NCBI GenBank assembly: GCA_034638255.1
Contig: JAWPGT010000012.1
Coordinates: 124,001 to 188,000 of the forward strand
Reading direction: 5' to 3'
Origin: Coprinus comatus
Lineage: Eukaryota; Basidiomycota; Agaricomycetes; Agaricales; Agaricaceae
Length of the DNA: 64,000 nt
Part shown: piece by piece, positions 861 to 57,757 of the stretch
How the letters are laid out: each line of letters begins with the position of its first letter
Numbering within the stretch: the stretch's first letter is position 1
Notes under the pieces: model-generated
The model's database searches: none
What the model was told of the DNA's origin: nothing
The model's input: the letters and a program-made list of their open reading frames with translations, nothing else
Made by a program: the position numbers and the translations under genes

Positions 861-946
861 GTCCATTTTACAACACTGTTCCTCAGACACCGACTAGTCT
901 ACCAGGCCACGACAAGGCAGAGGGAGGGGGGATGCCCTTCTGGTGG
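861..946. repeat. Structured repeat element, copy A
   Basis: Degraded member of a five-copy family (see 3181, 8062, 19117, 21572). The main 7-bp stem pairs 899-905 (CTACCAG) with 940-946 (CTGGTGG) and has one U-G wobble. Inside it the GCC/GGC mini-hairpin is at 906-908 and 916-918 with a 7-nt loop. A second partial copy of the element's first half follows at about 996-1060, where TTGGTCATCAGTG matches copy B. Orientation as a transcript is unknown. Confidence 0.6.
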
Positions 947-1060
947 GACTTACCCACCAACCCTCCAAGTTCCAACTAAACATGAACATGTTCTCTTTTT
1001 GAACCCCCCTTGGTCATCAGTGTTCGTCGAAGAACCGTAAAAATGCAAGGGGGGTGGCGT

Positions 1061-2375
1061 TCACTCGAGAATGATCTTAATCATTCAATGTCTATTTTTG
1101 AAAAAAAAAATCATGTTAAAGTCAGCATTTATATTCTTTGACTTTGAAAAGAAGATACATACGGTAAACATGAACAGTCTTATATTGAAGCTTTGATTTT
1201 TGGAACAAGTGAACTTGGTATAGCATCATGATGATGAATGAAGAAGGCATTTTTGCCTTCGAGTTCACAAGAAATTGAGAGTGTAAGGTATTGAGATGAG
1301 GTGCTTGACTTTTGTGTTGTAACTTGTGGCAGGCGGTTAAATCACTGCTGGTTTTTTATACTCATAGCTCTGTCCTTATCGATCCTAAGTGACTAGTTTT
1401 CATCTATTCTGATCCTTTGCATCATGACGCGAACACAGAATCGCTCAAAAAAGCATTGCGGAGAATCGATTAAAATTCATATAAAGCAAATGAAGGAACG
1501 TGTGGAAATCGTTGCTTGGGGATAAAAGGAATGGGCCTTGCATTCTCCAAGTAGGAGGGTTGGATAGTGCATCCGAACAAAGCAACTTGGTCAAATAACA
1601 TGTAAATACTGATATCACGAATTACGATTGGCAGTGCCAGTGGCAAAGATAAGATGTAATCATGTAAGTAAACCATAACACATTCGAACGTATACAAACA
1701 TGGTGATTGGCGTGTACTACGTGAATTGCGATGGGATCAGGCTTGTTATTAGTATGGTACAAGGTATTCGAGTTGTGGACTGTTCGAAGTTGCTCTTATC
1801 GACCATTGACGCAATGATAATAATTTAATACTCCGAGAGTCATCGTGATAGCTTCTTGACCTCATTGATTCTGATCTTTTGTATTATAATACAAACATAG
1901 TAAAATTGCTCTCTTCTTATTGGAGCAGTAGTGATACCAACACAGGTAGCCTTGAGGAGGCTCGCCGCTTCCTTTGCGTAGAATGAATCATACAAAGCAA
2001 TGAAGACGTGGGGTCATTGCTTTGGTATAATGAAAATGTGGCTTCAACATCCTTTGAAGAAGCATCGGATGTTTCACACAGCAATTCGAGTCAGATATCA
2101 TATACTTGGCTTCATCAACATGATTGAATCAAGTTGAATATCTGAATATCTGAACGTTTGAAAAGATGTAAGCAATTCATAAGAGTGTTCAAGCATTTTT
2201 CCTTCACTCTCAAGTTTAATTACACTGTGAAGCTATCTTGTAGCAGTTGAATTCGATATTAAATCATTGACGATTGTGCCATTTACCATTGTGCCATGTG
2301 CTGATGATCAAGTTATAATTTTCAATTAACTGTCGAGCAAGTGAAACCAACTACTCATTGATTCTTTCAACACTC
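1061..2375. other. Intergenic, no gene recognised
   Basis: AT-rich sequence with only short, unconvincing open frames (for example 1470-1697 on the minus strand). No conserved protein motif, tRNA or rRNA signature was seen. Confidence 0.5.
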
Positions 2376-2575
2376 TCTAGCCTGCGGAGTATCCATATCG
2401 AGCATGCCGGTGGTATAGAAGAAGTATACCGCATATGCTCTCAGATGGTGGTTTAAACTTAGTCAAATCAGACGCCACTCACTTAGCAACTCGGACTTCA
2501 ACACAATGGACTCGAAGATGTCGATGATAACACTGATACTTCCATTGTTGTTGATTAATGATTCTGGAGACTCAA
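2376..2575 (+). pseudogene. Fragment of an RPA1-like gene (DBD-B end)
   Basis: This stretch matches, with many substitutions and small indels, the last exon of the RPA1-like gene at 14175-14356. Shared landmarks in the same order are GGAGTATCC, GGTATAGAAGAAGTATA, ATGCTCTCAG, GTGGTTTAA, AATGGACTCGAAGATG and a terminal GATTAA. No other exon is recognisable nearby, and the frame is broken, so it is a decayed 3' fragment. Confidence 0.65.
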
Positions 2576-3180
2576 AGCTCAAACGCTCAAGTAATCCCTT
2601 CTTTTCCAAGATTTGAAACACTGCAATGTGTCATGAGAACTCATTAAGTCGTTGTATTCGATTCTAATGTTGCACTATATCCACCACCATTTCTAATTTA
2701 TGCCATACCAATCAGTACTGTGAATCGTGACTTCTCCCCTCGGCCTTCAACAAAAGTTCATATGCCGAGTGGAACTATTTATAATGTCATCGAGTCTCAA
2801 ATAGGACCTGTATACTCTTCTATCAGTAGTATTAAATATATGTCAGTGTAATGGCTCCCAATACATGTCGTTATGACCAAGTTGCTACGAATACAAATAT
2901 CATGATAACCCATAATTACTTCGTGCTACAAGTGTGTCACCAGTCCCGATCATTTCTTCAAATCTTACTGATCGTGATTCGTTTGGTGATGGAACATCAC
3001 CGTCCTTGACAATTTGTATCGACTAATAAATCAAGCAATTCTATAAATGTTTGAAAAAGCAAATGATGTATTTGATTATTGGAATGCAAAACAATAATGA
3101 GCTTTAATATTTATAATAAGTACATACAGAAATAAGAAAAACAGGAACTACAAAACTACCAATTTTCTAACTAAGTTTTA
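2576..3180. other. Intergenic, no gene recognised
   Basis: AT-rich sequence between the RPA1-like fragment and structured copy B. A short match to the first kilobase (CAGTAGTAYTAAATATAT near 358 and 2824) suggests old shared repeat sequence. No coding signal. Confidence 0.45.
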
Positions 3181-3279
3181 TCCCCGTTTTGACCCCCTTT
3201 GGTCATCGGTGTCCTAGGACACCGACTAGGCCACCAGGCCACGACGAGGCAGGGGGAGGGGGAGATGCCCTTCTGGTGG
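3181..3279. repeat. Structured repeat element, copy B
   Basis: Best-preserved hairpins of the family. Stems seen: GACC 3191-3194 with GGTC 3201-3204; a perfect 8-bp palindrome CGGTGTCC/GGACACCG at 3207-3224; the main stem CCACCAG 3231-3237 with CTGGTGG 3273-3279; and GCC 3238-3240 with GGC 3248-3250. The leading ATCCCC (3180-3185) can pair with GGGGAGAT at about 3259-3266 with one bulge, forming a pseudoknot. A purine-rich tract and a TATA-like TTAAATA near 3664 follow. Confidence 0.75.
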
Positions 3280-3304
3280 GACTTACCTGGCGTCACGCCT
3301 CTTA

Positions 3305-3480
3305 CAGACCTACCTTACCAACTACTTACCTTTACTAAACTCACGACCTACCTTACTAACTGACTTACCTTTCCTAAACTCACGACCTACCTTCCTACTT
3401 TGAGACCTACCTTTAAACTAATTCTTACGACCTACCTCTGTGACCTACCTTACGTATCTACATTACTGACCTACCTTTTA
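3305..3480. repeat. Short tandem repeat rich in GACCTACCTT
   Basis: The ten-base motif GACCTACCTT or a one-base variant recurs at least six times, several copies sitting in a longer unit of the form AAACTCACGACCTACCTT plus ACTTACCTTT. It follows directly on structured copy B. The open frames over it are repeat artefacts. Confidence 0.7.
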
Positions 3481-6400
3481 ACTACGGCGGGGAGTCGAAG
3501 AGAGAGGGAGGAGATAGAGATAGCCAGAAAAGGAGAAGAAGGAGAAGAAAGAGAGGAAGGAGAAGAGGTAAAGGATGAGGAGGATCCTAGGTCGATCGAG
3601 CCCGAGATGGTGTGGAAGGAAAGAAAGAAGCGATACCAAAAAATTGCCAAATCCTCTCTATCTTAAATACGCCAAAACGCACCCACTGTTTGCTGTTCTT
3701 TACCATTCTTTGTATATTTCTTTTCACGTTCCGTTGGAAAGGGTTCCTTTCGAGCTTCAGGGAAAGACTAGTTCAAAAACGTTTACCGTGAATATTGGTA
3801 AATAACATGTACAAATCCAAATAGTATTCATCGGCTACGCGATTTGCTTTCCGTCAATACAAGCAGACCTATCCTCTTCCCTTGCATACTTTGGATATAG
3901 CCTACCAGGTAGCAGTCTAATGGAGAGTTGAGTATGGAAGAGAGGACTTTGATTTTCGGACGAGGGGAGATGCATACTGGCCAAATTGGATATGCCAAAA
4001 AAACAAACTGACCGGTTCGTATTTTTGGTGTCGGGTTTACGTTTGCGTCAGATCAAGATCGCGTGCAGGCCGGAATCTCATTCCACTCCCATTCTAGAAT
4101 TCGACATAACACTCCTCCCTCCCTTCCGCTGCCGTTTATCGTCGGCCTGTAGCATATACTACTTTGCTTTGCATGGAAATGTTATTTTGCAGCTTGTCCG
4201 TGGAGGGAAGGATGAAGGAATGAGGATGCCAGGAATAAGCGACCGTCAGGCCCAAATTTCACTACTCGGAGAGACACAGCCTGACAGCAGTTCGAATTCA
4301 TCTTGGCACAGAACGGTTCTAGCTCCAACTTCCGTATCCAGGGCCTTGATAAGAGGGTACGTGACCGTCGTGTGGGATGTTTTGGGTTAATAAATGTTGG
4401 TTTGATGATGCGTTATAGTGACGACCCTTCAAAGATGCCGTGTGCTACATATGGAGCTTTCGGTGAGTACTAGATCACCGACCCAACATACAGATCTATG
4501 TTGAGGGACAATAGGCAGCTGGGTGATTCGATCTGCCCAAGAAATTAACCAATAAGCTTCAAGAAAAAGTGATAGTCCAGTTCCAACTTACGGCAGTAGA
4601 AATGAACAACCGTGGCATTGGCATTGGCAGAGCACCTTTGAGTCGAGGAGACCATCCTCCCAAGTATCCTGAATTCCACAACCGTAAAATAAATAAAGCG
4701 GTGGACCAGTGGACACATGCAGAGCAGAAATACACAGGACACTGAGTTTCCATTCTGTTAGACCATTGATGAATGACCGATCCCCCGAGGAACGAGACAC
4801 AGGTATACAGATCATGTAAGCATGCTTCCACCTCAAATCTACACGAGAAATTGTTACGAAACAACCCCCAAGTCTCTCTTTGGAGCTGCTCCGAGTATAC
4901 CCAGACATTAAATTTTTTACGGACAGGTAAAGCGCCTCGGACCACCACCAACAGCGAATATTAACCTTTGTTGAATCACCTAGACCGTGGCCCATGCTTT
5001 GTTTATTTGCTCTAGCACGCAGGCCAAAAGGTCCAGGACATCCTCGTTGACTTCAAAGACTCCAAACATTCCCCAACGGCAACACATTTGGTATGTGCCA
5101 GAAACAACGACCGCTTCATAGACTCACGAAGCCTTGGTTGCTCTTAGCTGATCTTTCCCATTTTCTTCCGCCCCAACATTGACCATAGTGGTCCTTCCAC
5201 ATCATTGTGTACCTCAGTTGCCGCTCCAGCAAACTTCACGACCAGACAACAGCGTAGTATGGACCACCAAATCTACAAACATATATCCTCCGCTTCCAGC
5301 CAGTTGGGACATAGCCTCCAGGTCTTCCCCACGAAGAGTAAACTATTGGTTCTTGTGGAACATTGCGGACCTGGTTTTGAAATGAAGCCTTACTCGATTC
5401 TCGAAGAGGTCCGCGAGCACCCAAAGGAATTAATCCTCTACAAGCGTCGTCGTCTTTCAATCGACGTCTGGTTTCAAAGCCCGGCGATCCAAGAATCGAC
5501 ACCGCCTTCGTAGTGATTCCCAGCAACAGGATTTGGACTCTACAGCCTCCCATCACAGAGCCCAATGTCGCTGTTCCTAGCTGCTACAGTCTTGTTGAGC
5601 CTATTCGCATACGTCCAACATGTCGTTCCCAATCCATCACCAATTCACCACGTTTGTCGATGAAGTTCAAATAAATCAAACTAAAAGCTCCCAAATCGGA
5701 CCGAAAAGGCTTGAAGGCCAGTAGACAGCAACAAGCACCACTAGAGCCAGCCATCCTCCAGGTTCTTCCACTCGGGCAGTAGACACACCACTTCTCGTAG
5801 AACACCGTCGACTCCGGAACACTGCAAAGCACCACTTCATCAATACATATTTTGAATGCTGCTCTCTTTATTAGAACCAGCTGGAGCCATTGCCATTCCA
5901 TTTTACCAGTGCATCTAGTTGTCAAGTTCGACAGCGGAAGGACTTTACATGGGCGAGACGAAAGTCATCTCTCCTACCAGGAAGTCTAGTTGTTGAGCCC
6001 GTTCGGTCGTTCCAGCCCATCGGTTCGCAATTTTGACGACAAAGTAACAATATCAAGGCAGCATCGAGGAATAAAGCTCGAACCATGGACAGGTTACCCC
6101 TGGACGTGTAACTACGCGAAACCGCCTTTCTACCCTATGCATAGAATCGTGGAGCCAATAAGGAGCAAGCAGTTTAGCATGAAAAGAGAAAGCGTATATG
6201 CAGCAGTTCGAGAAAATAGCACAAATAATGAACCTGTGTGTCAATGCTCTCGTCTAGTCATCAAAGACCATATTCGATAGGGTTGGTATATTGTTAGCCC
6301 ATCCTTTTGGTTTCTTTCAGCTAATGTAGTTGCAGGTAAATACACAACTGCGTGTAAAGGTCCTCAAGCAAGGGTATTGTCGTTGATGATTGCAAAGATC

Positions 6401-8061
6401 CTCCTTGATGTACATATGTGCTCGTATGGACGCATATACAGAGTAGCACCGCGAGTATGTTGATGGAGGTGGTCGTAAACCGATTTTTTGACGAATATAT
6501 GCACTCGAACAGGTGTTTTCGAGTAAGGATATAGTTTATTTGGTGTTGCGGGACCGTGACGGAGAGCTGGGTATACATCCTAGATTCTTTTGATGCATAT
6601 AGTCTGTACATAAGGCGGAGTGTGGAGCGACAGTGAGTCGGTGTCTTTTTTCTTGGGAAATGTATTGTTTATGTGTGTCGGATGTAGCCTGAGAAGCACC
6701 TCTGGTAATCGCTGTTTTCTTGCTGCCAACGTTGCCGTCGTTCGTCTGGAATCTTGTCGAACGCAAATATTGGCGGTTTAATACCTAGGTCAGTGAGTTT
6801 TGTATGTATTAGTGCCGCTTGCTGTTAAGTTACTGACCTTTTATAAAACAACCTTCAGGTCCAGTCCATGAGCGCCGATCGGTTGTGTTGTCTGAATCTA
6901 AGCCAGGAAGGCCATGAATGTAGAACGATAGAGTGAGGGCTCTGAGGAAGAACAAATGTGACCAAACACGGCGCCCTCCTGTCCTTCCTCTCCCATCACC
7001 ACCTCAACTGCTCTATGCGCTTTGGCCTTGAATTCCTTATTTTTTTTTTGACTTATAGCCATCACTTCTACCACCACTATTGCCACCACCATGTCCCAAA
7101 GTTCTCCTCAACTAGGGCTATTTAAACTCTTTTCTACCGACAAGTCCGATGTCTAAGCATTCGGTCTTTCTTTTCCAATGCAACCAAGGGAGAGAAGGTC
7201 ACAAACGCGTTTATAAAGAGTTATCGTATACACGTGCAAGTCTAGATGGTCGAGGAGAGGGGGCCTGAGCATTCGGGATCGGCACATAAGTCGTGCTAGA
7301 GCGAGACTCCGGTCCTACGCTCCAACCTTACAGAAGAAAACGTCGCTCGAAAACTATCTACGCACTACATATAAGAAGGCAATAGATTGGAGTACGAGGT
7401 TGTTTTACACCGTGGATTACAAGTTCGCCCTTCCCGGTTTCTTTTCAATCTCGTAATTGACTGACGAACAACTTAGGTTGACGTTGTACACGAATGTAAC
7501 GTAACTTCCAACTGCATATATTTCTATATGTGTGGTATGAGAGTTAGAGCGACAAAATGCAATGGCAGTAGCTTCAAGGATGGTTTTCAACACTACCCGC
7601 TTCTCCGGGCTTCAGTTTCCGTCTATAACCGAAGGACATTCTTATTCAAGGACAAAATCAATCTTTCAAACAGATGAAATGCATACACCCGATTCTCGAC
7701 GGACAAGAACAAAGTTGCATGCTCGGAGCGGGCACAAAGCTGGCGATGAAACCTCGCTTCTGTACTACATTAGGGAAAAATACCTATACGCACAACACAA
7801 TGTGTTTCCACCGCAAGAATACAATACATGATATCACAATAAAAAGTTCGTCCTCATCCTTTTCTTCATTTTCGTAATTGACTGACGAACAATAACTCTT
7901 ATACAGATGCGCCCCCACACCCCAACATATATATCCCTGTTTAACAATTATTTGATACCTCATGTACACGGACTTGAAACACTGTCATTTCAACGCACTT
8001 CAAGACCCCTATTCATTATTATCATTTTCAATAAAACGTCAAATATCTATGATATAGTATT
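3481..8061. other. Long gene-poor stretch, only unassigned short ORFs
   Basis: No recognisable protein. A purine-rich tract (3490-3640) precedes TATA-like sequence near 3664. Open frames of about 100-135 codons exist at 3986-4390 (+), 4588-4995 (-), 5205-5513 (+), 5584-5925 (-) and 5990-6280 (+), but none shows a known domain. A plausible GT-AG intron at about 4357-4418 inside the first might mark a real spliced transcript. A 21-bp direct repeat lies at 7451-7471 and 7872-7892. No tRNA was seen. Confidence 0.4.
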
Positions 8062-9191
8062 GTCCCCTATTTTGAACGTCCTTTAGTTTCACCGCTTTCA
8101 CGCTTCTCCAAGATGTGAAAGTAGCTATTCAGCCACCATGCCGCAACAAGGCAGGACGAGGGAGGGACAAGACCCCTATGGTGGAACTACCTACTACATG
8201 GAAACCACCACAAGAAGTCGTAACTATTCAGAATCAAGTCTACGTCTACAAATAAAAAAGGAGAAGGAAAAGAAGAAGAAAGAAAGAAAGTACACCGAAA
8301 CACCTAAAGATACCAGTTGAAATTTGAGAAAAAGAAGAAATGCTACCCGCATTACAAAAGTTTTCTTTGCTAAATGGTTAGTAAGTCACACAACTCAATC
8401 TTGATCTTGAATTTGATGTTGATGATCTTCAATCGATGTCGGTCGAGTGGCGGTTGAGTGTCGGTTGGATGTCGAAGCTTGAAGTCATTGATGCTGGCTA
8501 AAGTTCCAAAGTTTTTATTCAGTATCATGTCAAAAGTATAATTATGATAATAAGAAGACGCACACCCATGGTCCTGTGATGAGGATGAGAGGGGAAGGAA
8601 AGAAAGAATCTTTCTTGGGGCGTTACTCTCAAACTCTCCCCTGCTTTTATACTCGAAAGGTGTTATGTTATACTTTGATCTGTGACAAGTCTGAATTACG
8701 TAGATAGCAGAATTATGTTCTGACACTCGAGAGCAAATTCCACAATTATCATTTTAGATTGTAGGGGCTTCGATCAGCTTGAAGCTTGAAGGGCATCCAT
8801 TATCATAGATCAATGCATCAACATGTGTTTGAGCCACACAGAAGCCAGTATTAACCCTGCCAAAAATGTACTTAAGATACTCAGGAGCTTCCAGAAGACG
8901 TCATGTGTTAATTGTATGTAGTACTCTGTTGCAATGTGTTATTGAGCTCGAAGCACTGAAATGGCAATCAACTTCTCTGAATTTCTGAATTGAAATGTAA
9001 CAAGAATTTATAAGCACGGCGGCTTGTTGAACACCAGCCAAACCATTCATTCAGTTATAGTAGTTGTGTTGAAGGCTTGGCTCACGACCCTTCCCATTTA
9101 ATTGCTGTCTAGTGGACCCGGGTCGAACAATAATTAAGAAGAACACTCACAGCCGTTTTTGTCAGCTGGTGATCATGACGAGCGTCTATCA
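8062..9191. repeat. LTR-like block headed by structured element copy C
   Basis: The first 123 bases hold the structured element: GTCCC 8062-8066 can pair with GGGAC 8164-8168; AAC 8075-8077 with GTT 8086-8088; CTTTCAC 8095-8101 with GTGAAAG 8115-8121; CCACCAT 8133-8139 with ATGGTGG 8178-8184; GCC 8140-8142 with GGC 8150-8152. Downstream come TCACACAACTCAATCTTGA (8386), a purine-rich tract, the TATA-like TTTTATACTC (8645) and GTCAGCTGGTGATC (9161). The same landmarks in the same order occur in the block at 19117-20210, so the two are diverged copies of one repeat of about 1.1 kb, possibly solo LTRs. Confidence 0.65.
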
Positions 9192-9789
9192 GTCGCGCAG
9201 AGGAATACTTATGTGTGCGCAAGGCTGTTATCTCCAACGGCTATTAGTAAGGCAGAGAAGATGAAGTAGCAAGTACTACCCACGACCACCGAACCTTGAG
9301 TTTTGAGCGAGTAGTACTAATATTAGTCCTTGGATTTATCAGCATATTTAATGTCATAAAACGCCGGAAGGCAATGTACATTATGTCTTTCTTATGGTGA
9401 TTTCTGGGTAACACAAATGGTATGTAGTAGTATCGACTTATTGTAACTTCATAGCCTTAGAACCAATCAAACTTGGTATTTTTAACGACTCAACACACCA
9501 TGATTTACGGCATCATCGAGGCAACCTGGAGGCACCCATGTGTTCAATTTCAACAGCCTCCATCGTCCAACAGCCCTACTTAACCATTTCTACTTACTGC
9601 TCACTGCAGATCAACTACGTATCTGAGAGTAATAGTAAGATACATTTGCAAATCAGAAATCACCGTAAGTTATTTCAAGATGAGAGTCATTAGACGACCG
9701 ACGAACAACGGTTTATTCTAGTTATAGGTTGCGACCTGCCACTGCAACTCTGTGTCATTTCCGCGAAATTTGTTAGAGACAGCATATCA
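9192..9789. other. Upstream region of the DUF6535 gene
   Basis: No gene seen. It holds the tail of the LTR-like block and the presumed promoter and 5' UTR of the gene starting at 9790. No clear TATA box stood out. Confidence 0.4.
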
Positions 9790-12472
9790 ATGGCAGATTC
9801 AGTAATCATCATTCAATAATCTTACAAGGTCCTCATCTGAACACTGAGTAGGGTACTACTACAGACACATCCAAGTCTTGGGAAGGCGTCAACATTAGAG
9901 TGGAGAAATGGACAAATAGTTTATGTGACTCTTGGAGAAGCGAGATGAGCAATCTGCTAATTTTTGTGAGTCTACTAATGTTGATAAATGAAATAGAAAA
10001 TTCAACGAGTGGTCTCCTATTTCAGGCTTCTCTATTCTCCGCCATCGTCACTGCGTTCACTTTAGAGGCCGCAAGAGATATTCATGTCGACCCCGCAGAA
10101 CAGACTGTTCTGTTACTCCGAACATTGGTTCTCCAGGTCCACAACATATCGAATCCCCAAGCCAACCTTCCTCTCAATCTCGCCGGCATCCTTGAGTTTG
10201 ATGACTCTGTGACCATCCCCCTTCGCACTCAACAAATATATCTACTCTACTGCATCAGCCTCTCACTTAGCCTCATCTCTGTCCTTGGTGGGATCACTGC
10301 ATTACAATGGCTTCGAGAATTCAACCAAAATGTCGCTGGTGTGTCACCCAGTAACGACATATACGTTCAATATCAGCGACACAAAAGTCTGAAAAAATGG
10401 AAAGTTCTGGGATTTCTTAATACATTACCCATACTTCTCCTCGCTGCATTATTCATCTTCTTTGTTGGTTTTCTTATGTCACAATGGGAATCGGGTGCTG
10501 TTGCTGCAAAGCCGGTGTCGGTTCTTGTAGGAATAATTTTGGTTCTATTCATCTTCATGACAACCCTTCTACCAGCAAGAGTTGGAGCCAAACGGCTTGT
10601 GACAACTCATGATACCACTGTCGACAATTCGTCTGATGCACCCTTACTCTGCCCGTACCGATCCCCACAAGCTTGGCTTACTCTTGTTTTCTTTTATTAT
10701 ATCCTTCGTGGTATCCAAAAATTATCAGCTAAGAGGCCCAATCCTCCCGGCCCATTTAGCGAGATAAATAGTTGGACTGAATGTGACAAATGGTGGATAC
10801 AGAAACACACAACCGAAAAATCAATTTATCCGGCATTATCTTGGGTGGCCACCGAGTTTAACCAAACCAAAGATGCAGTTCTAATGGCATACCAATGCAT
10901 CATATCCTCATTCGCAGATTCGTATTGCGAATATTTGAAAAAACTTCCACAAAATGAAACGGTTCCAGACTCAACGACATGGAGTGCATTTGGATTGTCG
11001 ACTATTTCGCAAATTGAGAACCAGTTTACTCGCGACAAGCCTATGCTCCTGGGGAACACGTATTTCGGAGCATTTTCAAGAATATGGGCTGTCGTAAGGG
11101 AAAAGGATTTGAAGGTCGAGAGCTCTAATGATATCTACCAAATCCTCCGTGTGGAAACATCATCGGAGACGGAATGTTCAGGTAACAGTTCAATGTGACA
11201 TTTCTGTCAACTCTTTCACTCACAATTCGCTTCTACAGCTCTTTTGAAGTCTATCAGCAGCTCGCTTTCCCATCCAGAGAATGTATGGATGGCGGACGCT
11301 GTGGTTGCTGCTACCTGTCATGTCATTGATCTCGATCAACCTCTCCAACGTTTCTCATATTGCAATGACATCATTTCTATTCTAAGAGAAATGTGCAAAC
11401 GGTATACAAAAGACGACACTCTGTATATTTCTATGCTTAACCTTTGCAAAAAACTTGTGGAAAAACTTTCGTCGAAGCATTGGTGTGAAGACTTACTTAT
11501 TATATTCAATGGGGTATTTCGTACTTTGGACTTGGAAACACTGGGAAATCTTGGATTTATTCTTCGAAAACTGCTTGTACAATGCCCTACATGCTACATT
11601 CCTTATTGTTCGTCTTCCATATTTACAATCACTGATTATCACTCACCACGACCGCTCATTACTAGGGCGGGCAGAGCAGTTCCTCAAAATTATCAATAAT
11701 CTTACATCGAAGCGCCTCATAACCAAAGATCACACTCTTGATGCTATTTTCAATTATACATCATATGTTATACAATGCTCGACAGGACTAGACCGCATTC
11801 TCCCAACTATCGACACAACACTGAATACTATACTCTCTGCTGCGGAAGAACATGTTCGTCTCTCGACCTCCACAGATTCGGTTTTGCACCCGAGTAAATT
11901 CTCCATTACACGTCGTGTTACATATCGAGCTCACCAGGCTAACGAGCTCAAACCGGTATGGGACCTGACTGACAAATTTAATGAAAGGTTAAAGAAGATC
12001 TGGGGTATTAAACAAGAGGGTGTAAATACTAGTGGTCAGATAGCAGTTCAGCGGATCGAGGAACACAGTAGTATCAGAGATACTAGTACCGGTAAGCAAA
12101 AATGATGTGACAGTGATTTAATATTCTTAACTAACAATCTTAAAACCATTATAATTGGCAGAGGTTACTAAAAGGGAGGGAGAGACTACCGCTCAAATTG
12201 TCCCAAACTCATCGGACGCTGAAGCAAGTACTATCAACGTGCACGACCCCGACATACATTCCGGAGTTGGTGGGTCGGACATGGAAGTGCAATATCTGGC
12301 ATCTAATCCTCCGTTATTGATCGATAGATCGCCGGATGAACCGGAATCTTTGTCCAGTCAAGCAATAACCAATCTTCGGCCCGCCTCCTCCCAGAGCCAT
12401 GACAGTTTAGAACTGGAACAACGTAACACGCCAGCGACTATGGGTAGTTGTAAAGGGAAAGAGAGAGAATAA
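9790..12472 (+). CDS. DUF6535-domain multi-pass membrane protein (one frame break)
   Basis: Unknown function; DUF6535 proteins are abundant in mushroom-forming fungi. After splicing, the N-terminal part reads SWRSEMSNLLIF then ASLFSAIVTAFTLEAARD, the family hallmark. Hydrophobic segments include YLLYCISLSLSLISVLGGITAL, LLLAALFIFFVGFL and VLVGIILVLFIFMTTLL. Proposed exons: 9790-9801, 9852-9965, 10026-11181, 11239-12091 and 12162-12472, with introns of 50, 60, 57 and 70 nt (branch-like CTAAC at 12131). The first exon (MADS) is a guess; the others are firm. Between about 11540 and 11660 the coding frame shifts by one, either an unrecognised intron or an indel. The C-terminal tail after 12162 is low complexity and ends at TAA 12470-12472. 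Confidence 0.75.
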
Positions 12473-12770: not shown

Positions 12771-12788
12771 ACGCGTCAAAGTCGCGTG
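12771..12788 (+). promoter_or_regulatory. MluI cell-cycle box-like sites upstream of the RPA1-like gene
   Basis: ACGCGT at 12771-12776 followed by a second CGCGT at about 12784-12788, some 40-55 bp before the ATG at 12827. In ascomycete yeasts ACGCGT is the MBF site that drives S-phase genes, including RPA genes. Its role here is inferred from position only; the paralogue at 25050 lacks it. Confidence 0.4.
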
Positions 12789-12826
12789 TCCTAACACTCC
12801 CCCCTACACTCAACCCTACAACCCAG

Positions 12827-14356
12827 ATGCGTCTTCGAAGCTTCGTGATTTCCCCGTTCCTCACAGAAAATGGTATCCAAAGACTTGCGGCACTCAGAGG
12901 GAATTTTCGTGAAACCGATATTGTTGTAAATTTCTATTTTCCCCCATCACTAGAAGAGTCCCCAACCACAGAAGATCTTGCCATTATCTCAGACGGATTT
13001 CAATGTCTGCATGTACTCAATGAAACAAACACTTGGAGTGACGATGCCCATTGGATAGACCATTACGCTGTCGTACGGATCCGAAGGGCGATGTTTTGCC
13101 CTTACGGTGATGGGTAGGTTTCCAGGATTTTCGCTAGTTGTACAAGCTCTAATTCCTTGGTAGAACTTTACTTATCTCTCCGGAGTTTATGGAAGTTCTA
13201 TCTTCTCATCCCATAGAATCACACAAATTTCCACAAAAGGTTTTCAAACATGAAAATACCCAAAACGCTGAAACCCACGTTCCGCTTATTGCCTTGCCTT
13301 ACTTTGGTACCACATTTGACACTCGTTTGCCTGCCATACGTGGACTCGTAACGTTCAAATCTCGTCTTCATGATCCCTACTTTGATAACAGAAATACACC
13401 ATTTTTTGTGATCCATATTGAAGACGAGTCCCTGGAAGTGCAGCTGTATGCGGAGGGTGAAGTTGCTACAGAACTTTATGACAGATTTGAAGAAGGTCAC
13501 ATATACCGTATCGAGCACTTTTCTCGTAAATCCATCCACACTTTCTTTTATAATTTGCCTATACGATCGAGAGACAACTACGGATTTACAAACGCAACCT
13601 ACATTGAAGAGGTAGATTTTTCATTGGCTTCTCAGAGTCTATTGTTTTACTAAAATCCCTCTCAGTGCCCTCAGCATGACAAACTCCCTCTGAAGTTGAG
13701 CTTCAACTTCATTCCGATACCTGCAATAACCAAACTGGATTCTTCATCTCTCCTTCATCATGAGTGGCATCATATCGGTATGTCAGGTGTTCCTAGTTGC
13801 TTCAAGCATGAGATTCATGAATTCCAACACCAGATGTTTTGGGGATAGTACATTCAGTTGGACCATTAAAGTTAAAGGGCAACCAATATTTTGATATTAA
13901 GGTGAGACCATACATCTTGTATACTTGATAAAAGAATCAAATAATAAATTTATTTTCCTTCAGATCCCGCGACGTGAAATAACTATTGCAGATCAATCAG
14001 GGCGTATTCTACCAGTTACACTATGGAGCTATCGCGCAGTAGAATTTGATATCATGCCGTTGACAATTGTAGCATTGCGACATGTACGAGTTCAACGAGA
14101 CATAAGTAAGTGAAACATATTTACTCGAATTATGCAAACAATTACTGATGGGCATTTTTCCAACATTCACTTAGCTCTTGGAGTATCCGTTTTATCAACA
14201 AGTACGATTCATGTTGAACCTGATGGGGTAGAAGAAGTATATGCTCTCAGGCAGTGGTTTAATCAAGTCGGAAGTTATTTGTTTGACAAATCGGACCCAA
14301 TGGATTCGAAGATGTTGATAATGTGTGATAGTGATACTGCCATGGTTGTCGATTAA
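12827..14356 (+). CDS. RPA1-like single-stranded-DNA-binding protein, apparent 1-nt frameshift
   Basis: Divergent relative of the large subunit of replication protein A. Exons: 12827-13113 (RPA70N-like, ISDGFQCLHVLNE), 13164-13611 (OB-fold DBD-A: LVTFKSRLHDPYF, FVIHIEDESLEVQLYAEG, ATELYDRFEEGHIYRI), 13666-13778 (FNFIPI), 13834-13901 (DVLGIVHSVGPLKLKG), 13964-14105 (REITIADQSGRILPVTLW) and 14175-14356 (LSTSTIHVEPDG). The last three build DBD-B. Introns are 50-69 nt and in the same places as in the paralogue at 23459-25050. Summed exon length is not a multiple of three: one extra base near 13741 puts a stop in exon 3. The protein ends after DBD-B, so the DBD-C zinc domain of canonical RPA1 is absent. 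It could be a pseudogene or a sequence error. Confidence 0.75.
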
Positions 14357-14705
14357 CGACACTGAGGTTTAATTCTAAAAGAACTCGAGGTGTCATCGTC
14401 AATGTGTCTTTCCCCACTTTATACATTAAATAATTGTATTCTGTAAATTTTCACTAATGTATAAAACGACTTCACTATTTCAATATTCAATTTTTACAAC
14501 GTTGTATCTACCACAATTTCTAGTTAATATTGTACAAACTGGTAGATTTGACACAGATTAGTATATTATCATGATCCTTTATATATATTACAATGCAAAT
14601 TCACTGTATCATTATAACACGTATGTAGCGACAGCATGACTATTGTCATACTGTGTAAAAGATAATTAGATCCATCTACATAAATGTACACCTACAAACA
14701 AAACC
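14357..14705. other. AT-rich intergenic stretch
   Basis: Convergent 3' flanks of the RPA1-like gene (+) and the next gene (-). Very AT-rich; no feature seen. Confidence 0.5.
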
Positions 14706-16225
14706 CTAGTAATATCGATTCCAAACATACACCATGCCTCCTAAAGCAATGAAAGTCATAAATACCTGTTCTTCAGACCATCCTTTATATTTATCAATCG
14801 GTTTAAGCGACATGATACCTGAGGAAGTTGAACAACATTTTGGTGTTAACCCTTCACATTAGATCAGTTGCGAATCATGATACGTACCATTTTTCAATAC
14901 CACTCGGTGTCTTCTGAGGGTATTATCAACAAAAACGTCCCAATAATAACAGACAGATTCGGTAACCTATTAATTCTAATGAGCGAATGAAGTATAAAAT
15001 GTAATAATAAAAAATAGAACGTACTCGAGCACTTTCCTTCACTCTCTTACACCAAATATCATCGTGAATAATGGCAACATGATGAGCTGGCATCTGTAAA
15101 TATATACTGCATAAGTTGAATTTGGCTCATATTAATCAAGTGAAGTGAACAATATGTACCTGTGGTATCATATGATAGAGCAGCACAAAAGAAACATTAA
15201 ATGGGAGCTAACACAATATATAGGTAAAACACAGTAGATGTATGAAGAGGAATACGTACATTATTTTCATAAGGGGGACGAGAGATCTGGAAATCGGGAA
15301 GAGCGACGCTCTCAGAACTATTTTGCCACCTGAAGATCCGAGCAGACAAGCGGTCCCTTAAGGAAGGTGGATTGGGAAGTATTGGAGATGAATAGCCTTG
15401 CGAGACAAGGACATCATTGTAGTCAGCTCCATTGAGTCCAATAGAGAACCCACGAAAAAAGAGGGGTTGGGTACACTTTTCATGAGCTATCGACGTCCTG
15501 ATATCGCACTCAGAGCCGAAGGTGGAGACATGGAACAAGGACCCTTTCTGGTCAGGTCTTAATTGGACTCGGACAGTCGTATCTCGTGAATCAGGTCTTA
15601 TGGATCCACAGCAAAAGCGTTCCGCCGTGTCAAGTCCAGTGATTAAGAACAAAGAGCCATTGAGTGAAACAGGTGCAAGAGCATACCACTCTTTGGCATG
15701 ATCTCGAATGTATGTTTCGAGGTAGTCACGATTGAGTAGATCTTTGCGCGTAGCACCATCAGGAAGATATAGAAAGGCTCCCCGACCACAATCGAATTCA
15801 TGCAGCCTTTGAGATCAATAGTTAGTATAACACTTATCTGAACACGGAAAAACAGGACTCTACCCACACATCTGGAGAACTAGGAGGTAACTTTTTAATG
15901 TTGGGTGACAGGTGCCAGTAATCTGGCTTGAAAATGTCGTTTCGTTCAGATATCTTGGACCGGGGAGCACGTTGAAAGTTAGTGTAATGAGTTGTATTAA
16001 ACTGGCGAGGATGAGATTTATCGTCAAAGATGTTGAAAAGGAATACAGGGTGTCCGGGAGAACGTGGTCGTATCGAGAATAAATCACCAATCTTGAATCC
16101 TTCCTCTGGAAAAAGGGGATACTGTGAAGGACTTGGGGGAGCTACATTGCAGGGATATCCATGGGCCAGAGGTATCAATGATGTGAATAGATGAGAGGAA
16201 TAGCATCGGATTTAGGTTCCGACAT
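14706..16225 (-). CDS. Conserved basidiomycete protein of unknown function
   Basis: Recognisable segments on the minus strand, in order: YPLFPEEGFKIGDLFSIRP (about 16115-16060), GRGAFLYLPDGATRKDLL, EWYALAPVSLNGSLFLITGL, then PLFFRGFSIGL, and after an intron HHVAIIHDDIWCKRV (15093-15025). The order of a GDLF-type start, an NGSLxLITG core and a C-terminal VAIxHDDxW is one I associate with a large family of uncharacterised agaricomycete proteins; no catalytic motif is known to me. Central exons about 16178-15853 and 15809-15263 are firm. The start is uncertain: ATG at 16225 (MSEPK) lies in another frame from the next exon. The 3' end is tentative: possible exons 14913-14888 and a tail ending at TAG 14706. 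Confidence 0.55.
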
Positions 16226-16701
16226 ACAATATTTGAAGGAGGTGAAGGTAAGTAACACGTTCAGAGCACGTTCCCAGTAATGTACTTGAAGCTACTTAAG
16301 TACGTTAGTACACGTGCAGGAGTTGATGCAAACATTTGATTTTCTTGATCTACTTATATGTAACGCCAACTAACAACAGAAGCACTACTATTGATTTGCA
16401 CTGACTTTTTTGTACGCAGAAAGGGTCATGGAGATAATATTAAATGAGAAGACGTCCAAGCCGTCGTCGTCATCCAGCCTGCTGAAGGAAGGGATCCATT
16501 TAGGGTGCAGTCAAGAAACCCAAATTTTATTCTTGCCCTCTGGATCGAGACCTAGAATTATTGGCATTCACAGCCTCTGTCTGTTGGAAAAAATGATGGA
16601 GCTCTCTGTTGAAGCTGGGAACTCTCTGGGAATCACTGAGATGAAAATGATGGATTAGATGATTGCCGTAATTCTTGTCGGCATTCTACTTGTTTTCAAT
16701 C
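16226..16701. other. Divergent intergenic region
   Basis: Lies between the starts of the unknown protein (-) and the hydrolase (+). An 82-codon ORF at 16410-16658 has no known domain. No clear promoter motif. Confidence 0.4.
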
Positions 16702-18800
16702 ATGCTCTTGGCACTACTTGCCCTCATTGTCCCGCTCAATGCTCTCCAAATACCGTTCAACGTCGAAAACAGTTCCAAGCATCTCATAACACCCAGAACG
16801 GAGACGTATATAACGTCATTAATCAACAAATGGAATTCTTCAGGTTTAGCAATTGCTGTTGTCCGTCAAGACCCAACATCTCCGAGTGGATGGCATCATG
16901 AATTTGGTTCTTATGGGATCGCGAATGCTCGTGGAGATGCAATGACACCAGATACGGTGTTTGCTATCGCATCTAATAGCAAACTTTTTCTCGCGTCCTC
17001 GGTCGGACTCTTAGTTTCGAATAAGACGCTACGCGAAGAACGAGGAGAAGAGCTGAAGTGGACAACAAAGGCTAAGTATATCTTTGGTGACCTTTGGGGG
17101 CTTATGGACGAGGATATGGATAGAGGGGCTAGCCTGCAGGACATGTTGTCACATAGGACTGGTATGCCTCGACACGACTTCTCTGGTGTCGCACGGGAAG
17201 GAGGAGTCGCTGAAATGGTATGTATCTGCTACTTTCTGTGTTGTGTTGAAGGTTAACATGAACCTCGTTTATTATAGATTTCTACTATGCGTTACCTCCG
17301 ACCCTCCGCAGAATTCAGACAGACATTCCAGTATAACAATCTGATGTACGAAACGCTTTCCTATCTACCTGAGACTCTCCTCAATCAGACATTCGAGTCC
17401 TATATTACACAACACATATTTCAACCACTCAATATGTCATCTTCGACATATAGTGTCCAAGAAGCGGAGGAAAGGGGCACATTTGCTGACGGCTTCCAAG
17501 CAACAATGAGGGATATTACAAGAGGGATTAGTGGCACTCTCAGGGCTACTGTGCCATATTTCCTGCGTCCGGGTGAAGAGCGAATTTGGGCTGGCGCTGG
17601 CGGTGTTCTTTCTTCACCTAGGGATTTAGTAAGTCTTCGTTGCTGTTGGCGATCCAATCATCTAACTCATCATAGGCCGTTTGGGTTTCTACACTACTCA
17701 ACAATGGGACACACCCTTATACAAACAAAACAATTTTCCCCAAAGAGGTCCTTGATCATATCGCAACTGGCGTGACAGTTAGCGAAGGGAAAGCTGCCTA
17801 TCCTGAACTTGTACGTTGAAGTCAAACTTAGCGGTCTAGGTTCCCTTTTGCTCACAATTGCAGAGCCCCAAGGTATACGGTGCTGGACAATGGCGATACA
17901 CATATCGAGGCCACGAAATCATTGAGCACGGGGGAAACAATCCTGGATACAAAACCCAAGTTGCACGCTTCCCCAACGATAACCTCGCGATTGTCGCGTT
18001 GAGTAATGATGCTAATGGTGGATTCCTTATGGAAGCTGCCAAATGGCGTATTGCTGATGATATCCTATTCGGTGAAGGAAATGGAATTGATTGGAACTCC
18101 AGGTATGCTGTCTATTTTGTCCTTCTTACTGACATTTTGCTGACGTGTATTGTCATTGAGATACGAAGACCTTTGGTTTGACTATGTCAACAAATCTCAA
18201 ATATTCACACCTCGTCCCGACTCACCGAAGCCACCAACATCACCTATAGCACTCCTATCCAAACGAACATTTACACATCCAACATATGGCACTCTACAAC
18301 CCTGTCTCGTACCCGAATCATTGTCCTCTACTCCATCATCCTCCTTCACTACTAGTCATCCTGATTGTCCTCAAGTTTTAAAAAGCCTACCTGTTCGACG
18401 AATTCTCAGGGCCTCAAACATGACAATCCCAACATTCATCATCCCTTGGAAACGAACATTCGTTACGCATCTCAAACTTGAACATTTCAACGAAAATCTA
18501 TTCAATGTTACTGTTCTTTATACAAACGCAGAAGTTAGAGCGAAAGAGGGGTATGCTCGAATTCCTCCCACTACAATGACATCCTCTATCATTTCCAGTG
18601 GTGAAGAAAGAGAATCATGGGAAGATGAGGGAGATATTGTTATTGGACTAGATGAGAAGTTTGAGGTTGAATGGGTTCAAGGTGATGAAGAAGGTTTAGC
18701 GTTTAAAGGTGGATTTTGGGGTAAGGAAGGACCGGATTCAGAAGCTCCTAAAGGTGTTGGGAAGGATTCTGCCGAGGTTTGGTTTGCAAAAGTTCCATGA
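16702..18800 (+). CDS. Secreted serine beta-lactamase-family hydrolase (PF00144 type)
   Basis: Penicillin-binding/class C beta-lactamase-like enzyme, likely an esterase or peptidase acting outside the cell; substrate unknown. Five exons (16702-17217, 17278-17628, 17676-17810, 17864-18102, 18161-18800) splice with no frame break to 626 aa. A hydrophobic N terminus (MLLALLALIVPLNALQ) looks like a signal peptide; longer upstream frames lack an ATG in this frame. Catalytic elements are all present: S91-x-x-K94 (SNSK), Y191-x-N193 (YNN) and H356-G-G. MLSHRTGMPRHD is the usual HxxG segment near the active site. The C-terminal 210 residues after YEDLWFDYVNKSQ form an extra domain, probably beta-rich, that is common in fungal homologues. 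Introns are 45-60 nt. Confidence 0.88.
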
Positions 18801-19116
18801 AGTCATTCGTTTCTCAGATATTATTTGATGTGGTACTTGTATTTTGTTGTCCCAAAGTGAGATTGGTATGTGTAAATATGTAAAATCTAACGTATCATGG
18901 TCCCATAAATTATCTTTAATCAGAAAGCTGTGTGACGGATTTCACACGGAAAAAATCGCCAAAAAAAGCTTTCCAGCGCTGGCACTTCTGATTTCACTTG
19001 ATCTCAGTCCCTGCTCATAATTCAGTGTGCATTCTTCAAAAGTTTAAAGTCAATTACAATCATCTCAACAATTATGATCAGGCAGGAATCAATTATGACA
19101 ATAATCATATATTTAT
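18801..19116. other. Intergenic 3' flank
   Basis: 3' UTR side of the hydrolase gene, then AT-rich sequence up to structured copy D. No feature seen. Confidence 0.5.
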
Positions 19117-20210
19117 GTCCCTTTTTTTAACGCCCTTTGGTTAACCGTAAAAACAGCTACTAAGCCGCCATGCCACGACAAGGCAGGACGAGGGAGGGAG
19201 AAACCCTTATGGCGGAACTACCTATTACATGGAAACGACCACATGAGTAAGTATGTATCTACGGATCAAGCTTTAAGTCTATAAAAAACTAACTACAAAT
19301 GAAAAGATTAATATCCGCAAACGCCTTACCCATCCTATTTCGAAAGTCTTACTCCCAAGCTAGAAGGGTTAGCAGGTTTAAACGGAATCACACAACTCAA
19401 TCTTGAATATGAACTTGAGGATCTTCAATGGGTTTGGTAGATTGGCTTGTTGAGTGCTGTAAGTGCTTTTGGGTGCTGCCAGTCGAGACTCGCATCACAT
19501 CCTTGAGGCTGGGCCAGTCCTACTTCATGTTAATAGGTGCCCTACTACTGGTAAAGTGCATTTCCATGAGTTACCAGTGAGGATGTGAAGACGTATAGTC
19601 TTAAGGAGAGAGGAGAGGAGGAAGAACGAATGAGTCTGAGGTCTGGAGTGTTACCGTGAGCACCCAGGCCTTTTATACTCAAGGCGTGTTGAACACTGAT
19701 ATCAATCTTTGACAGTCCCGAGTACAAAAAGCACAAGCAGTCCCACACGTTGACTCGTAAATTAACTGTTTGGGAAAGTGCAAGTACTTGCCGTTTTGGT
19801 AATGTCCAGTCGGAATGACAGGTCCATCACTCCATCAATTTTTATAAATAGCCAACTTGTGGCGGGCCACAAAAACCAACTATGATGCCGGTTTAACACA
19901 AAAAGAGTACGAATCCGTTTTTAGTAAGTTATTATGGGCACCCAATGTGTTTCTGGGAAACATGCATCATACGTGAACATGCGGCGCTCAATAACAATCC
20001 GGTAAGTCGGAAGGCGGTACAACTACATATGCCTCTCGTAAATGCGATTGTGTGTTGAACATGAGTACAACTCATCCATCTTGGGTAACATCGCTGCCGA
20101 GCTCGTTACGACTATAACGTGATAGGGGTCGGGTCGCACAATAGAATAAGTACCTAATCAGTAATCAAAATCAATCCCTGTCAGCTGGTGATCGAAATGC
20201 GCGTCTATCA
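19117..20210. repeat. LTR-like block headed by structured element copy D
   Basis: Homologue of the block at 8062-9191. The structured part has GTCCC 19117-19121 (UCCC able to pair with GGGA 19196-19199), TAAC 19128-19131 with GTTA 19140-19143, the main stem CCGCCAT 19165-19171 with ATGGCGG 19209-19215, and GCC 19172-19174 with GGC 19182-19184. The long hairpin seen in B, C and E is not evident here. Shared landmarks downstream: TCACACAACTCAATCTTGA (19388), purine-rich tract (about 19608-19630), TTTTATACTC (19671) and GTCAGCTGGTGATC (20180). No open frame is credible inside. Confidence 0.65.
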
Positions 20211-21571
20211 ATCGGAAGACTGACCGTCAACCGCTTCAACAGCATTTTTTTAAGGCGGCGTATACACCTACCGAGTCAACCGCCAGTGTCGTGAGACCAT
20301 ACTTTCCGTGTCAGCCTTTCATTTATTTGTCAAGAACTTATCATCTCTCAGCTTGATGGACGACGACAACGTGTTTATACATACCTTTAAGCAGTACAGC
20401 CTTTCACGTAAGATTCATGAGGATGACTAGTGAGTCTTTGTTCTTCACCATCTACTCTAAAAGATCTGAGATGCCATTAGGTTTCTTCTTCTGGACATCT
20501 TCCGAGCAATGGCATTGTATTCGGACATAATCAGCGGATGAGCGCCAAACCAGTTTAGCTAGAGTCGCTGTTTCTCCGTATTCCCCACTCTCACTCCAAA
20601 CCCTTGTTGTTACCCCCACCCGCACGTGTCTCGGCAGGTTTATTGGTTGAGGTGGTCAACAGCCTCAAGTCCATGGCTATGCCCATACACGAAGCCAATG
20701 AAATTACAGCTAGCCACACATCGCCTCGATTCTCTCACTGACGCCAGATATCCAGTCTCTTCACATTCTTGTGCGCTCATCTGTGCTATTCTATCTGGAA
20801 CTTTGCTCATACCGTGGTATACTAGATAATCCCCGCTTCGCCCTGGCCAGTGGTTATGCCCCCCACCAGCGAACCAGTACGGGCTGTGACATGTGTTGGA
20901 AAAGCTGTGGAGGGACCTAGCAAGAATATGGAAGGCATAAGAAGCACATTGATACTCGGATGGCTGTTGAGGGTACGAGATTCCCTTTCCTATGAGTCAG
21001 TCATATACCAATCGATTCTCTATCTACACTCAGGCTGTTGTTCCTCTCGAGATTGTTTTCATTACTAGACCAATTAATCATCAAAATTCGAGGAGTGAGG
21101 GTATATTACAATCGCATCTAAATCTATTTGAATAAATAATAATTTAGTCTCGATTCTTCAATTACGGAATGTATTACGGATTTTATATGATGAGATATTC
21201 AGTGGGTTTAGTGGTGATACACTATATTGCGAGTAGTGACGTAGCAGTAGTGGTTGGGCTAGGCCCCTTTTGAGTCAGGCGGTGGCGGCGGGTTAGAAGA
21301 CTCCGAATCCGAGTGCAAACAGAGATATGTCGGGGGAATTTAGGTCGTGCAGTAGTAGGGGGCAGGATCGTTATGGGTGATCCGAATCTATGAGGTCGAG
21401 GTCGCGGAAAAGTTAGTGGGAACTATTAGTCTATCAACGAAGTTTCAAGTCTTGTTGAAGTTTCGTCTCAAATGCTTCACCTTCAATCTGGCCTGGATTA
21501 TTCGAAGAGTTAGCCTCCGTCAAAATGATTGATTATGAACAACTCACCAATGATCGAGGATCCACCTTTAT
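20211..21571. other. Gene-poor stretch
   Basis: Short ORFs at 20626-20829 and 20850-21068 (+) show no known domain. GC content rises between about 20590 and 20960, which might mark an old gene remnant, but nothing could be identified. Confidence 0.35.
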
Positions 21572-22370
21572 GTCCCCATTTACACTCTTTGGACACTGCT
21601 CTCTCAGAGAGAGTAGTTAAGCCGTCACGCCAACGGCAAGGCAGAGCGAGGGAAGGACAACCCTTGTGACGGAAAAACACCTACCTTGCTTACCTTGATC
21701 ATCAGCGAACTCGATCAATTCTTGTTTCAGCGGTTAGTGTGATAAAGACGATAAGAGAGAAAATGGAAGTGGAGAAAGTGATCGAGCTCGAAGATGATTG
21801 GAATGTTGGTGTGGCCTCGAGGGTGGAAGTTCGAGGCTAGACCGAGGTTTTTGGTTTAATTTTTTTGTTTGCGCTTTTGTTATTATGCATGAGTCGATCT
21901 TTTTTTTTTTTAATCTTTTTATGCGTCTTTTTTTTAAATCTTTTTATGCGTCTTTTTATCTTTTCTTTTTATGCGCCTTTTTATGCTTTTTATTTTTATG
22001 CGTCTTTTATGATTATATTTTTATGTGCTTTTAATTTTTTTTTTTTTTTTTTTTTTTTTTTTCAAATTTATGAGAGAGGAGAGTGTGAAAGAGACCATTG
22101 AACAGCCGAGAACCCAAGACAAGACAGAGGGCCACGAGACGAAATAACCCAGACACCAGACACAGGACACTCGAAAATAGCAAACCCAAGAATACGAAAC
22201 CAGCAAGACACAGCTCAAAACCAAAACCCAGGGGGATGATAGATTGAGAGAGGAGAGGAGAGGGACGAGTTGAAAAGAGGAGAGATGGGGGTAAGAAGAG
22301 AAGGGAGGCTTGGGATGTGTTACGAGCCACTCGTGCTCCTTTATATCCTTACACAATAGCTGTTATATTG
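21572..22370. repeat. Structured element copy E with downstream LTR-like sequence
   Basis: Structured part: GTCC 21572-21575 with GGAC 21655-21658; CTCTCT 21599-21604 with AGAGAG 21608-21613; main stem CCGTCAC 21622-21628 with GTGACGG 21666-21672; GCC 21629-21631 with GGC 21640-21642. As in C and D, a purine-rich tract (about 22240-22310) precedes a TATA-like CTTTATATCC near 22339. Sequence beyond the structured part has diverged strongly. Confidence 0.65.
21898..22062. repeat. T-rich minisatellite and poly-T tract
   Basis: The motif TTTTTATGCG(T/C)C recurs about five times between 21913 and 22006 with variable T runs, ending in an almost pure T tract (about 22037-22062). It lies inside the copy-E block. 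Open frames reading long Phe or Lys runs here are artefacts. Confidence 0.75.
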
Positions 22371-40309: not shown

Positions 40310-40343
<34 letters not shown>

Positions 40344-52280: not shown

Positions 52281-52311
52281 CAGACGTCTACGATTACTTC
52301 TCCCAAGATAA

Positions 52312-57752: not shown

Positions 57753-57757
57753 CCTTG

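Follow-up and report, generated by a model that had tools for sequence, protein, structure and literature searches.

The element and its copies

Which molecule recurs as a non-coding element along a 64,000-nucleotide stretch of the genome of the mushroom Coprinus comatus, and what could it be doing there? The stretch, called the window below, covers positions 124001–188000 of contig JAWPGT010000012.1 (C12), in an assembly of 35.7 Mb and 134 contigs. The original prediction had described five copies of an element with a common multi-stem fold, belonging to a repeat family that it did not recognise. These five copies were located where it had placed them, all on the minus strand, on which the element is read here. 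The fold is almost certainly the nested double pseudoknot of hepatitis delta virus (HDV)-like ribozymes, and each element is probably a self-cleaving ribozyme of this type; catalysis, the exact cut and the role are what we infer from the sequence.

Three whole-genome pattern searches returned 15, 17 and 10 matches, and the same eight copies on C12 (c1–c8) were present in each. The cluster extends from 90.9 to 145.7 kb of the contig, a span of at most 55 kb. Copies c4 to c8 lie in the window (Table 1). The nucleotide following the predicted cut, C1, is at C12:90970 in c1, at C12:114385 in c2, which is inverted, and at C12:118182 in c3. A model of the 5′ domain, applied to C12:50001–188000, recovered the eight copies and no other match at E up to 1, with scores of at least 64.6 bits. 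The off-cluster pattern matches scored at most 19.2 bits with the same model. Eight of the nine copies now detected are intact, namely seven in the cluster and one on contig C4 (see below), and c4 is broken.

Fold and covariation

The stems follow one another in the order P1-P2-P3-P3′-P1′-P4-P2′, an HDV-like order that had been rightly noticed at the outset. P1 consists of 7 bp; P2 consists of 6 bp and abuts the 3-bp P3; P1′ adjoins P3′ without a gap, and P4 is variable. The invariant GCC/GGC hairpin with a loop of 7–8 nt and the changing second hairpin (P4 in the present nomenclature) were both present as described, and the P1 variants were as written, except that the copy at position 861 (c4) has one A-C mismatch. 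P2 is formed by the C-rich strand immediately 5′ of the GCC stem and the strand after CYAA. Its register, revealed by the drz-agam-1 alignment in a permissive Rfam scan of c5, fits every intact copy, with the pairings CCCCCU/AGGGGG in c1, c2 and c5, CGCUCU/AGAGUG in c3 and c8, CGUCCU/AGGACG in c6 and CGUCCU/AGGGCG in c7.

Covariation was evaluated on an alignment (A4) of the seven intact clustered copies. The broken c4 was left out, and the C4 copy stands outside the pair counts because MAFFT misplaces its P1 and P2. All 119 cells of P1, P2, P3 and one P1.1 pair were paired. Seven of the 17 pairs were altered on both sides (four in P1 and three in P2), a value reached by 3 of 500 shuffles. The number of cells altered on both sides (17) and the covariation score (0.443) were each reached by none of 500. 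The covariation claimed at first is real. When the partner columns were slid by 1–3 positions, pairing fell to 32–50% of the cells. The paired substitutions reported for P1 affect four of its seven pairs, among the seven intact copies as well as in a seven-copy set including c4 and omitting c3. P2 alone was paired in 42 of 42 cells, and three of its six pairs were altered on both sides, including a change from C-G to G-C.

The non-Watson-Crick cells of P1 and P2 in the seven intact copies were four G-U and no A-C on the reading strand; the broken c4, outside this count, contributes one A-C. A G-U versus A-C count of 10 to 3, obtained with the helices of the original prediction and hand-chosen P4 pairs, is not relied on. 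The presence of G-U without A-C, together with TATA boxes on the same strand, argues for selection on the minus-strand RNA and not on the DNA of either strand. Selection on an RNA or single-stranded DNA structure had been proposed; the structural part of this proposal holds, with RNA as the supported molecule and DNA set aside. The J1/2 segment (15–19 nt) reads AGGG...CCCT in all seven intact clustered copies and could form a small P1.2-like helix, of about 4 bp at most, which is invariant and hence untested by covariation. On sequence grounds, the structured RNA is real and well supported.

The active-site signature

Under the correct P2 register the core nucleotides of HDV, first thought not to be evident, became visible; they had been overlooked because the register was wrong. 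L3 measures 7 or 8 nt in the eight clustered copies; in all nine copies its first nucleotide is U and its sixth is G. These are the residues of the trans U-G pair of L3, a signature of the HDV-like class (PMC3386971). J4/2 is CCAA or CUAA before P2′ in eight of the nine copies, with one extra nucleotide in the C4 copy, and is missing in c4. Its C is presumed to be the catalytic residue, acting as general acid. Apart from the catalytic C and four further positions, little of the R2 active site is conserved (PMC3774820). With L3 U1 and G6 and the J4/2 CYAA in place, the unrecognised family can be named as HDV-like.

Two features are unusual, C1-G37 at the predicted cleavage site and a single possible G-C pair in P1.1; both were observed in the seven intact clustered copies and in the C4 copy. 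The P1.1 pair never varies and is therefore untested by covariation. A script seeking the stem lengths, the gapless P3′-P1′ junction, the L3 residues and the J4/2 motif (the descriptor) matched eight of the nine copies. Over 138 kb, both strands included, it produced 10 matches, the seven intact copies and three others, as compared to 0–4 (mean 1.2) in 20 dinucleotide shuffles.

A diverged copy on contig C4

The ninth copy (L031), first found as a pattern match with three mismatches, lies on the minus strand of contig C4 with C1 at about position 779049. The descriptor matched it exactly at the anchor, with stems P1 CCCGGGG/CCCCGGG, P2 CGUGCU/AGCACG and P3 CCC/GGG, no insertion between P2 and P3, an L3 of sequence UUGUCGU followed by the C for P1.1, and a J4/2 made of CCAA plus one nucleotide. 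The 13 pairs of P1 and P2 are all Watson-Crick and differ in their bases from those of the cluster, and P3, invariant within the cluster, is altered on both sides. Among 40,000 random anchors the descriptor was matched 27 times, never with all 13 pairs Watson-Crick. Pattern searches yielded 18 off-cluster loci (two places being listed twice). Four of them matched the descriptor, but only in L031 did the match fall at the anchor; in L016 and in L015/L034, which are a single place, it lay elsewhere. None of 12 further off-cluster pattern matches run through the descriptor matched at the anchor.

Two outcomes named beforehand as adverse, a lack of further copies and independent changes at paired positions, were thus not what was observed: eight copies exist on C12 and a diverged ninth on C4, in which different bases of P1, P2 and P3 are all paired. 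L031 scored 16.7 bits with the 5′-domain model. That it is a copy despite this low score indicates that diverged copies escape the model, so that the genome holds at least nine.

Cleaving ribozyme or another object

Several results weigh against a self-cleaving HDV-like ribozyme. The comparison with Rfam, suggested by the original prediction, found no family at threshold in the whole window and, within positions 1–24000, no match even at E up to 5; single-copy scans of c7, c8 and the ninth copy (c9) gave no HDV-like match. RF01787 and RF00094 matched nothing in a search of the genome that scored part of the candidates. The P1.1 pair of HDV is C-G; the invariant G-C of the present copies is its reverse. 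One of the nine copies (c4) is broken, the "further pair types" measure was no better than in shuffles (339 of 500, A4), and the descriptor was written after the clustered copies had been seen. Finally, L031 has no TATAAAR or TATTTAAG box between −250 and −700, the only sequence of this kind being TATATAAG at −521.

The one HDV-like match in the single-copy scans was drz-agam-1 on c5 (11.2 bits for a gathering threshold of 37, E 7.7). Permissive matches numbered zero for c7, two for c8, both unrelated and weak, and five for c5 including drz-agam-1. The sub-threshold matches to mir-67, SAM-SAH, RAGATH-34, mir-8813, PVT1_6 and mir-1204 (E 0.36 to 9.7) were taken as chance. Twister and other known RNA families were ruled out by the lack of an Rfam match. 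H/ACA and C/D small nucleolar RNAs, considered on account of an ACA near the end of the element, were rejected as no consistent H or C box was seen by eye. The literature searched, with subscription journals mostly outside it, contained a paper on fungal HDV variants (PMC5640933) and no account of the present family.

The alternative that survives best, though an unlikely one, is an HDV-type fold devoid of cleavage, a structural or protein-binding derivative kept for another purpose. The G-C of P1.1 in all intact copies, the C at position 1 and the failure of the Rfam HDV-like models to recognise the element would fit such a derivative. The pattern of conservation points the other way. Within subfamilies the flanks are common over hundreds of bases, and in three cross-subfamily pairs the core is 64–72% identical as compared to 44–53% for the 200-nt flanks, the level of random pairs of stretches from the same contig (mean 49.5%, range 44–55%). 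Despite this divergence, J4/2 has kept its C and AA, and L3 its U and G. Moreover, active fungal variants are reported with C-G at the cleavage site (PMC5640933).

It is very improbable that the copies are remnants of mobile elements spread with their flanks, either introner-like, similar to miniature inverted-repeat transposable elements, or derived from the ribozyme-bearing 5′ end of a non-long-terminal-repeat retrotransposon. Within subfamilies homology spans both sides of C1 and ends without a common boundary, the nine copies found occupy two places only, and no reverse transcriptase was seen beside them, the nearest one identified being about 30 kb away, at window position 53255. This would have to be set against the dispersion of the copies in a transposon-rich region and the HDV-like self-cleaving ribozymes known at the 5′ ends of retroelements (PMC3774820, PMC4035085).

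The fold originally drawn, in which a third hairpin (GACC/GGTC and others) and a GTCCC/GGGAC pseudoknot would be functional and the HDV register a coincidence of pyrimidine-rich and purine-rich strands, has the smallest chance of all, since each of the two pairings can be written for six of the eight clustered copies (the hairpin with a G-G mismatch in c1 and not in c4 or c8, the pseudoknot not in c1 or c4), whereas the HDV P2 is formed by the same strands in every one of the seven intact copies of the cluster. Three of its pairs have changed on both sides there, one of them from C-G to G-C, and P2 is re-formed with new bases in the C4 copy.

Promoters and host genes

A TATAAAR or TATTTAAG box was found on the same strand, 304–673 nt upstream of C1, in all eight clustered copies. 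Equal control stretches contained such a box in three of eight cases downstream and in one of eight on the opposite strand, with an expectation of 0.15 per stretch. The clustered copies being related, these are not eight independent events. GTAAC was present 23–25 nt after the TATA box in c3, c6 and c7; it is placed similarly in c8, and was not seen there in the other four.

In the interval that begins at the presumed start and ends 400 nt beyond C1, no open reading frame (ORF) of the eight clustered copies exceeds 52 amino acids. Those of at least 20 amino acids among the top six of each copy showed no similarity between copies at E 0.01, and the downstream regions, when compared in translation, yielded no match at E 1e-3. 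A protein-coding host gene was rejected on these short, unshared ORFs. The clustered host genes thus apparently constitute a small family of non-coding, TATA-driven genes.

In c3 and c8, an intron-like GTGAGT...CTRAC...CAG precedes a 36-nt segment common to both. Inspected by eye, the two versions differ at three positions, and in one reading frame none of these differences changes the amino acid; c3 and c8 may have a short coding exon nearby. T-rich repeats with TTTTTATGCG units occupy window 21876–22058, inside the presumed c8 transcript, and are shorter in c3.

The donor-like motif

A motif resembling a 5′ splice site begins 8–14 nt before the predicted cut in all nine copies. It is AGGTRNKT or a one-base variant in the eight clustered copies (GGGTAAGT being the variant of c4). 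The C4 copy, with flanks that are unrelated in every other respect, has AGGTACGT, which starts 10 nt before C1. Over 138 kb, the donor-like motif was counted 33 times on one strand and 78 times on the other, the cluster itself contributing to the higher number. In c1, c2 and c5 such motifs are repeated in the sequence leading straight into the ribozyme, and part of the donor signal may therefore be a local repeat. Window 3281–3485 and the upstream flank of c1 (L004) contain degenerate AAGGTAGGT/AAGGTAAGT repeats, each resembling a 5′ splice site.

A branch-and-acceptor pattern was observed at most 330 nt downstream in four of the eight clustered copies (c2, c3, c7, c8), and none within this distance in c1, c4, c5 and c6. 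It looks convincing only in c3 and c8, in which a second donor-like sequence, GTGAGT, would define a short intron of the usual kind past the ribozyme. For this reason splicing across the ribozyme is rated as possible. In the 800 nt upstream of C1 of L031 (RNA order), several donor-like AGGTRAGT motifs and an acceptor-like CTAACTAACTAG stretch are visible, which suggests a multi-intron host gene.

Proposed role

We propose that the transcript would start about 30 nt after the TATA box, and that the ribozyme would emerge after about 280–650 nt (276–645 computed) and then cut 5′ of C1. The 5′ fragment would end in a 2′,3′-cyclic phosphate and the 3′ fragment would open with the ribozyme and a 5′-OH. 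Provided that the donor-like site had not been bound beforehand, the upstream RNA would acquire a 3′ end that is defined and lacks a poly(A) tail. The most likely role is this autocatalytic 3′-end formation, with which use of the donor-like site would compete. A more specific model, in which the ribozyme stands directly after a 5′ splice site within unrelated flanks and each transcript commits either to splicing or to self-cleavage, is tentative and rather doubtful. It implies that binding of the U1 small nuclear ribonucleoprotein and folding of P1 would be mutually exclusive, and the system would then act as a switch between splicing and autocatalytic cleavage, its active site containing a reversed P1.1 pair.

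As curated models miss these ribozymes, the HDV-like sub-type may be under-counted in mushrooms. The fixation of a G-C P1.1 and of C1 across diverged natural copies is a testable claim on the tolerance of the HDV active site. Intact covarying copies with matching promoters and donor-like motifs offer a compact system for the role of a cellular ribozyme in its transcript, an open question for most HDV-like ribozymes.

Features in the window

Table 1. Predicted ribozyme copies, donor-like motifs and TATA boxes in the window (all on the minus strand).
Feature	Position	Strand	Remarks
c8, intact HDV-like ribozyme core (predicted)	21583–21672	−	C1 21672, P2′ ends 21583
c8 P1 / P1′	21666–21672 / 21622–21628	−	
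c8 P2 / P2′	21643–21648 / 21583–21588	−	
c8 P3 / P3′	21640–21642 / 21629–21631	−	
c8 L3	21632–21639	−	
c8 P1.1 C	21621	−	
c8 J4/2	21589–21592	−	CCAA
c7, intact HDV-like ribozyme core (predicted)	19131–19215	−	C1 19215
c6, intact HDV-like ribozyme core (predicted)	8077–8184	−	C1 8184; longest P4 among clustered copies
c5, intact HDV-like ribozyme core (predicted)	3193–3279	−	C1 3279
c4, broken copy	857–946	−	C1 946; P1 with one mismatch; J4/2 CYAA and P2′ absent at the normal place
Donor-like AGGTAGGT	21679–21686	−	begins 14 nt before c8 C1
Donor-like AGGTAGTT	19216–19223	−	begins 8 nt before c7 C1
Donor-like AGGTAGTT	8185–8192	−	begins 8 nt before c6 C1
Donor-like AGGTAAGT	3281–3288	−	begins 9 nt before c5 C1
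Donor-like GGGTAAGT	948–955	−	begins 9 nt before c4 C1
TATA box TATAAAGG, c8 gene	22338–22345	−	673 nt upstream of C1
TATA box TATAAAAG, c7 gene	19670–19677	−	462 nt upstream of C1
TATA box TATAAAAG, c6 gene	8644–8651	−	467 nt upstream of C1
TATA box TATTTAAG, c5 gene	3662–3669	−	390 nt upstream of C1
TATA box TATAAAAA, upstream of c4	1353–1360	−	414 nt before C1

Around the broken copy (window 857–1075), a fragment resembling the 3′ half of a copy (P4′, CCAA and a G-run) is found shortly upstream of c4 in RNA order. The arrangement resembles a circularly permuted ribozyme, and short stretches of both halves can pair.

The window also encodes a DUF6535 protein, a KDZ transposase and a DUF382 protein; DUF382 is part of SF3b subunit 2. 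Among the 60 matches listed for the DUF6535 protein, the homologues with organism names are from mushrooms, for instance Crassisporium, Amanita and Moniliophthora, and point to a fungus of Agaricomycete type. Inverted repeats of 99% identity (26777–27421 and 37354–37949), about 10 kb apart, enclose the KDZ transposase domain (35005–35460), and this ensemble is probably a single DNA transposon bounded by long terminal inverted repeats. Identical direct repeats of 300 nt (49491–49790 and 57118–57417) flank a reverse transcriptase ORF (53255–53956) and probably delimit a recent long terminal repeat retrotransposon.

Pieces resembling the oligonucleotide-binding (OB) fold of replication protein A recur near the ribozyme copies, in window 13153–13650 and 23556–24719 and in L043 (about 5625–6899). 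In the window, three pieces gave matches to OB-fold families, none of which reached the curated cut-off; the one in L043 was recognised by eye only. A 66-nt unit is present in seven diverged copies in window 39979–58425 and, read by eye on the minus strand, seems to code for CCHC zinc knuckles.

Comparison with known systems

The element shares with the HDV-like ribozymes (delta-like, drz) the order of stems, the 7-bp P1, the 3-bp P3, the gapless P3′-P1′ junction and the P2 abutting P3, as well as the U and G of L3, the C of J4/2 and a variable P4. It differs from them by C1-G37 at the cleavage site, by scores below the Rfam thresholds and by the orientation of P1.1, G-C here and C-G in HDV; the Rfam drz-agam-1 consensus has a C at the corresponding L3 position. 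We regard it as most likely a known class of ribozyme in a variant form, found in an unusual clustered, donor-adjacent setting.

In the large HDV-like ribozymes, a helix in J1/2 is activating (PMC4908430). The AGGG...CCCT of the present J1/2 could form a comparable small helix, which differs from theirs in being short and invariant. The half-life of the intronic HDV-like ribozyme of CPEB3 matches the time taken by the polymerase to reach the next exon (PMC10919898). Here too self-cleavage would compete with splicing of the host transcript, but the clustered host genes are apparently non-coding and the predicted cut is 8–14 nt from the start of the donor-like motif.

Of the fungal HDV variants, 230 representatives were described in 26 fungal species, and two variants cleaved as bimolecular constructs (PMC5640933). 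These variants have a loop E in P4; inspection of A4 by eye showed no clear loop E and no consistent AGUA/GAA. The variants carry an extra nucleotide between P2 and P3. The insertion is 0 in all seven intact clustered copies and also in the C4 copy, but the U-A pair that ends P2 might be taken for an inserted U. Judged by the published description, the present element shares with them a fungal genome and the C-G at the cleavage site, the first distinguishing point of the fungal variants (PMC5640933).

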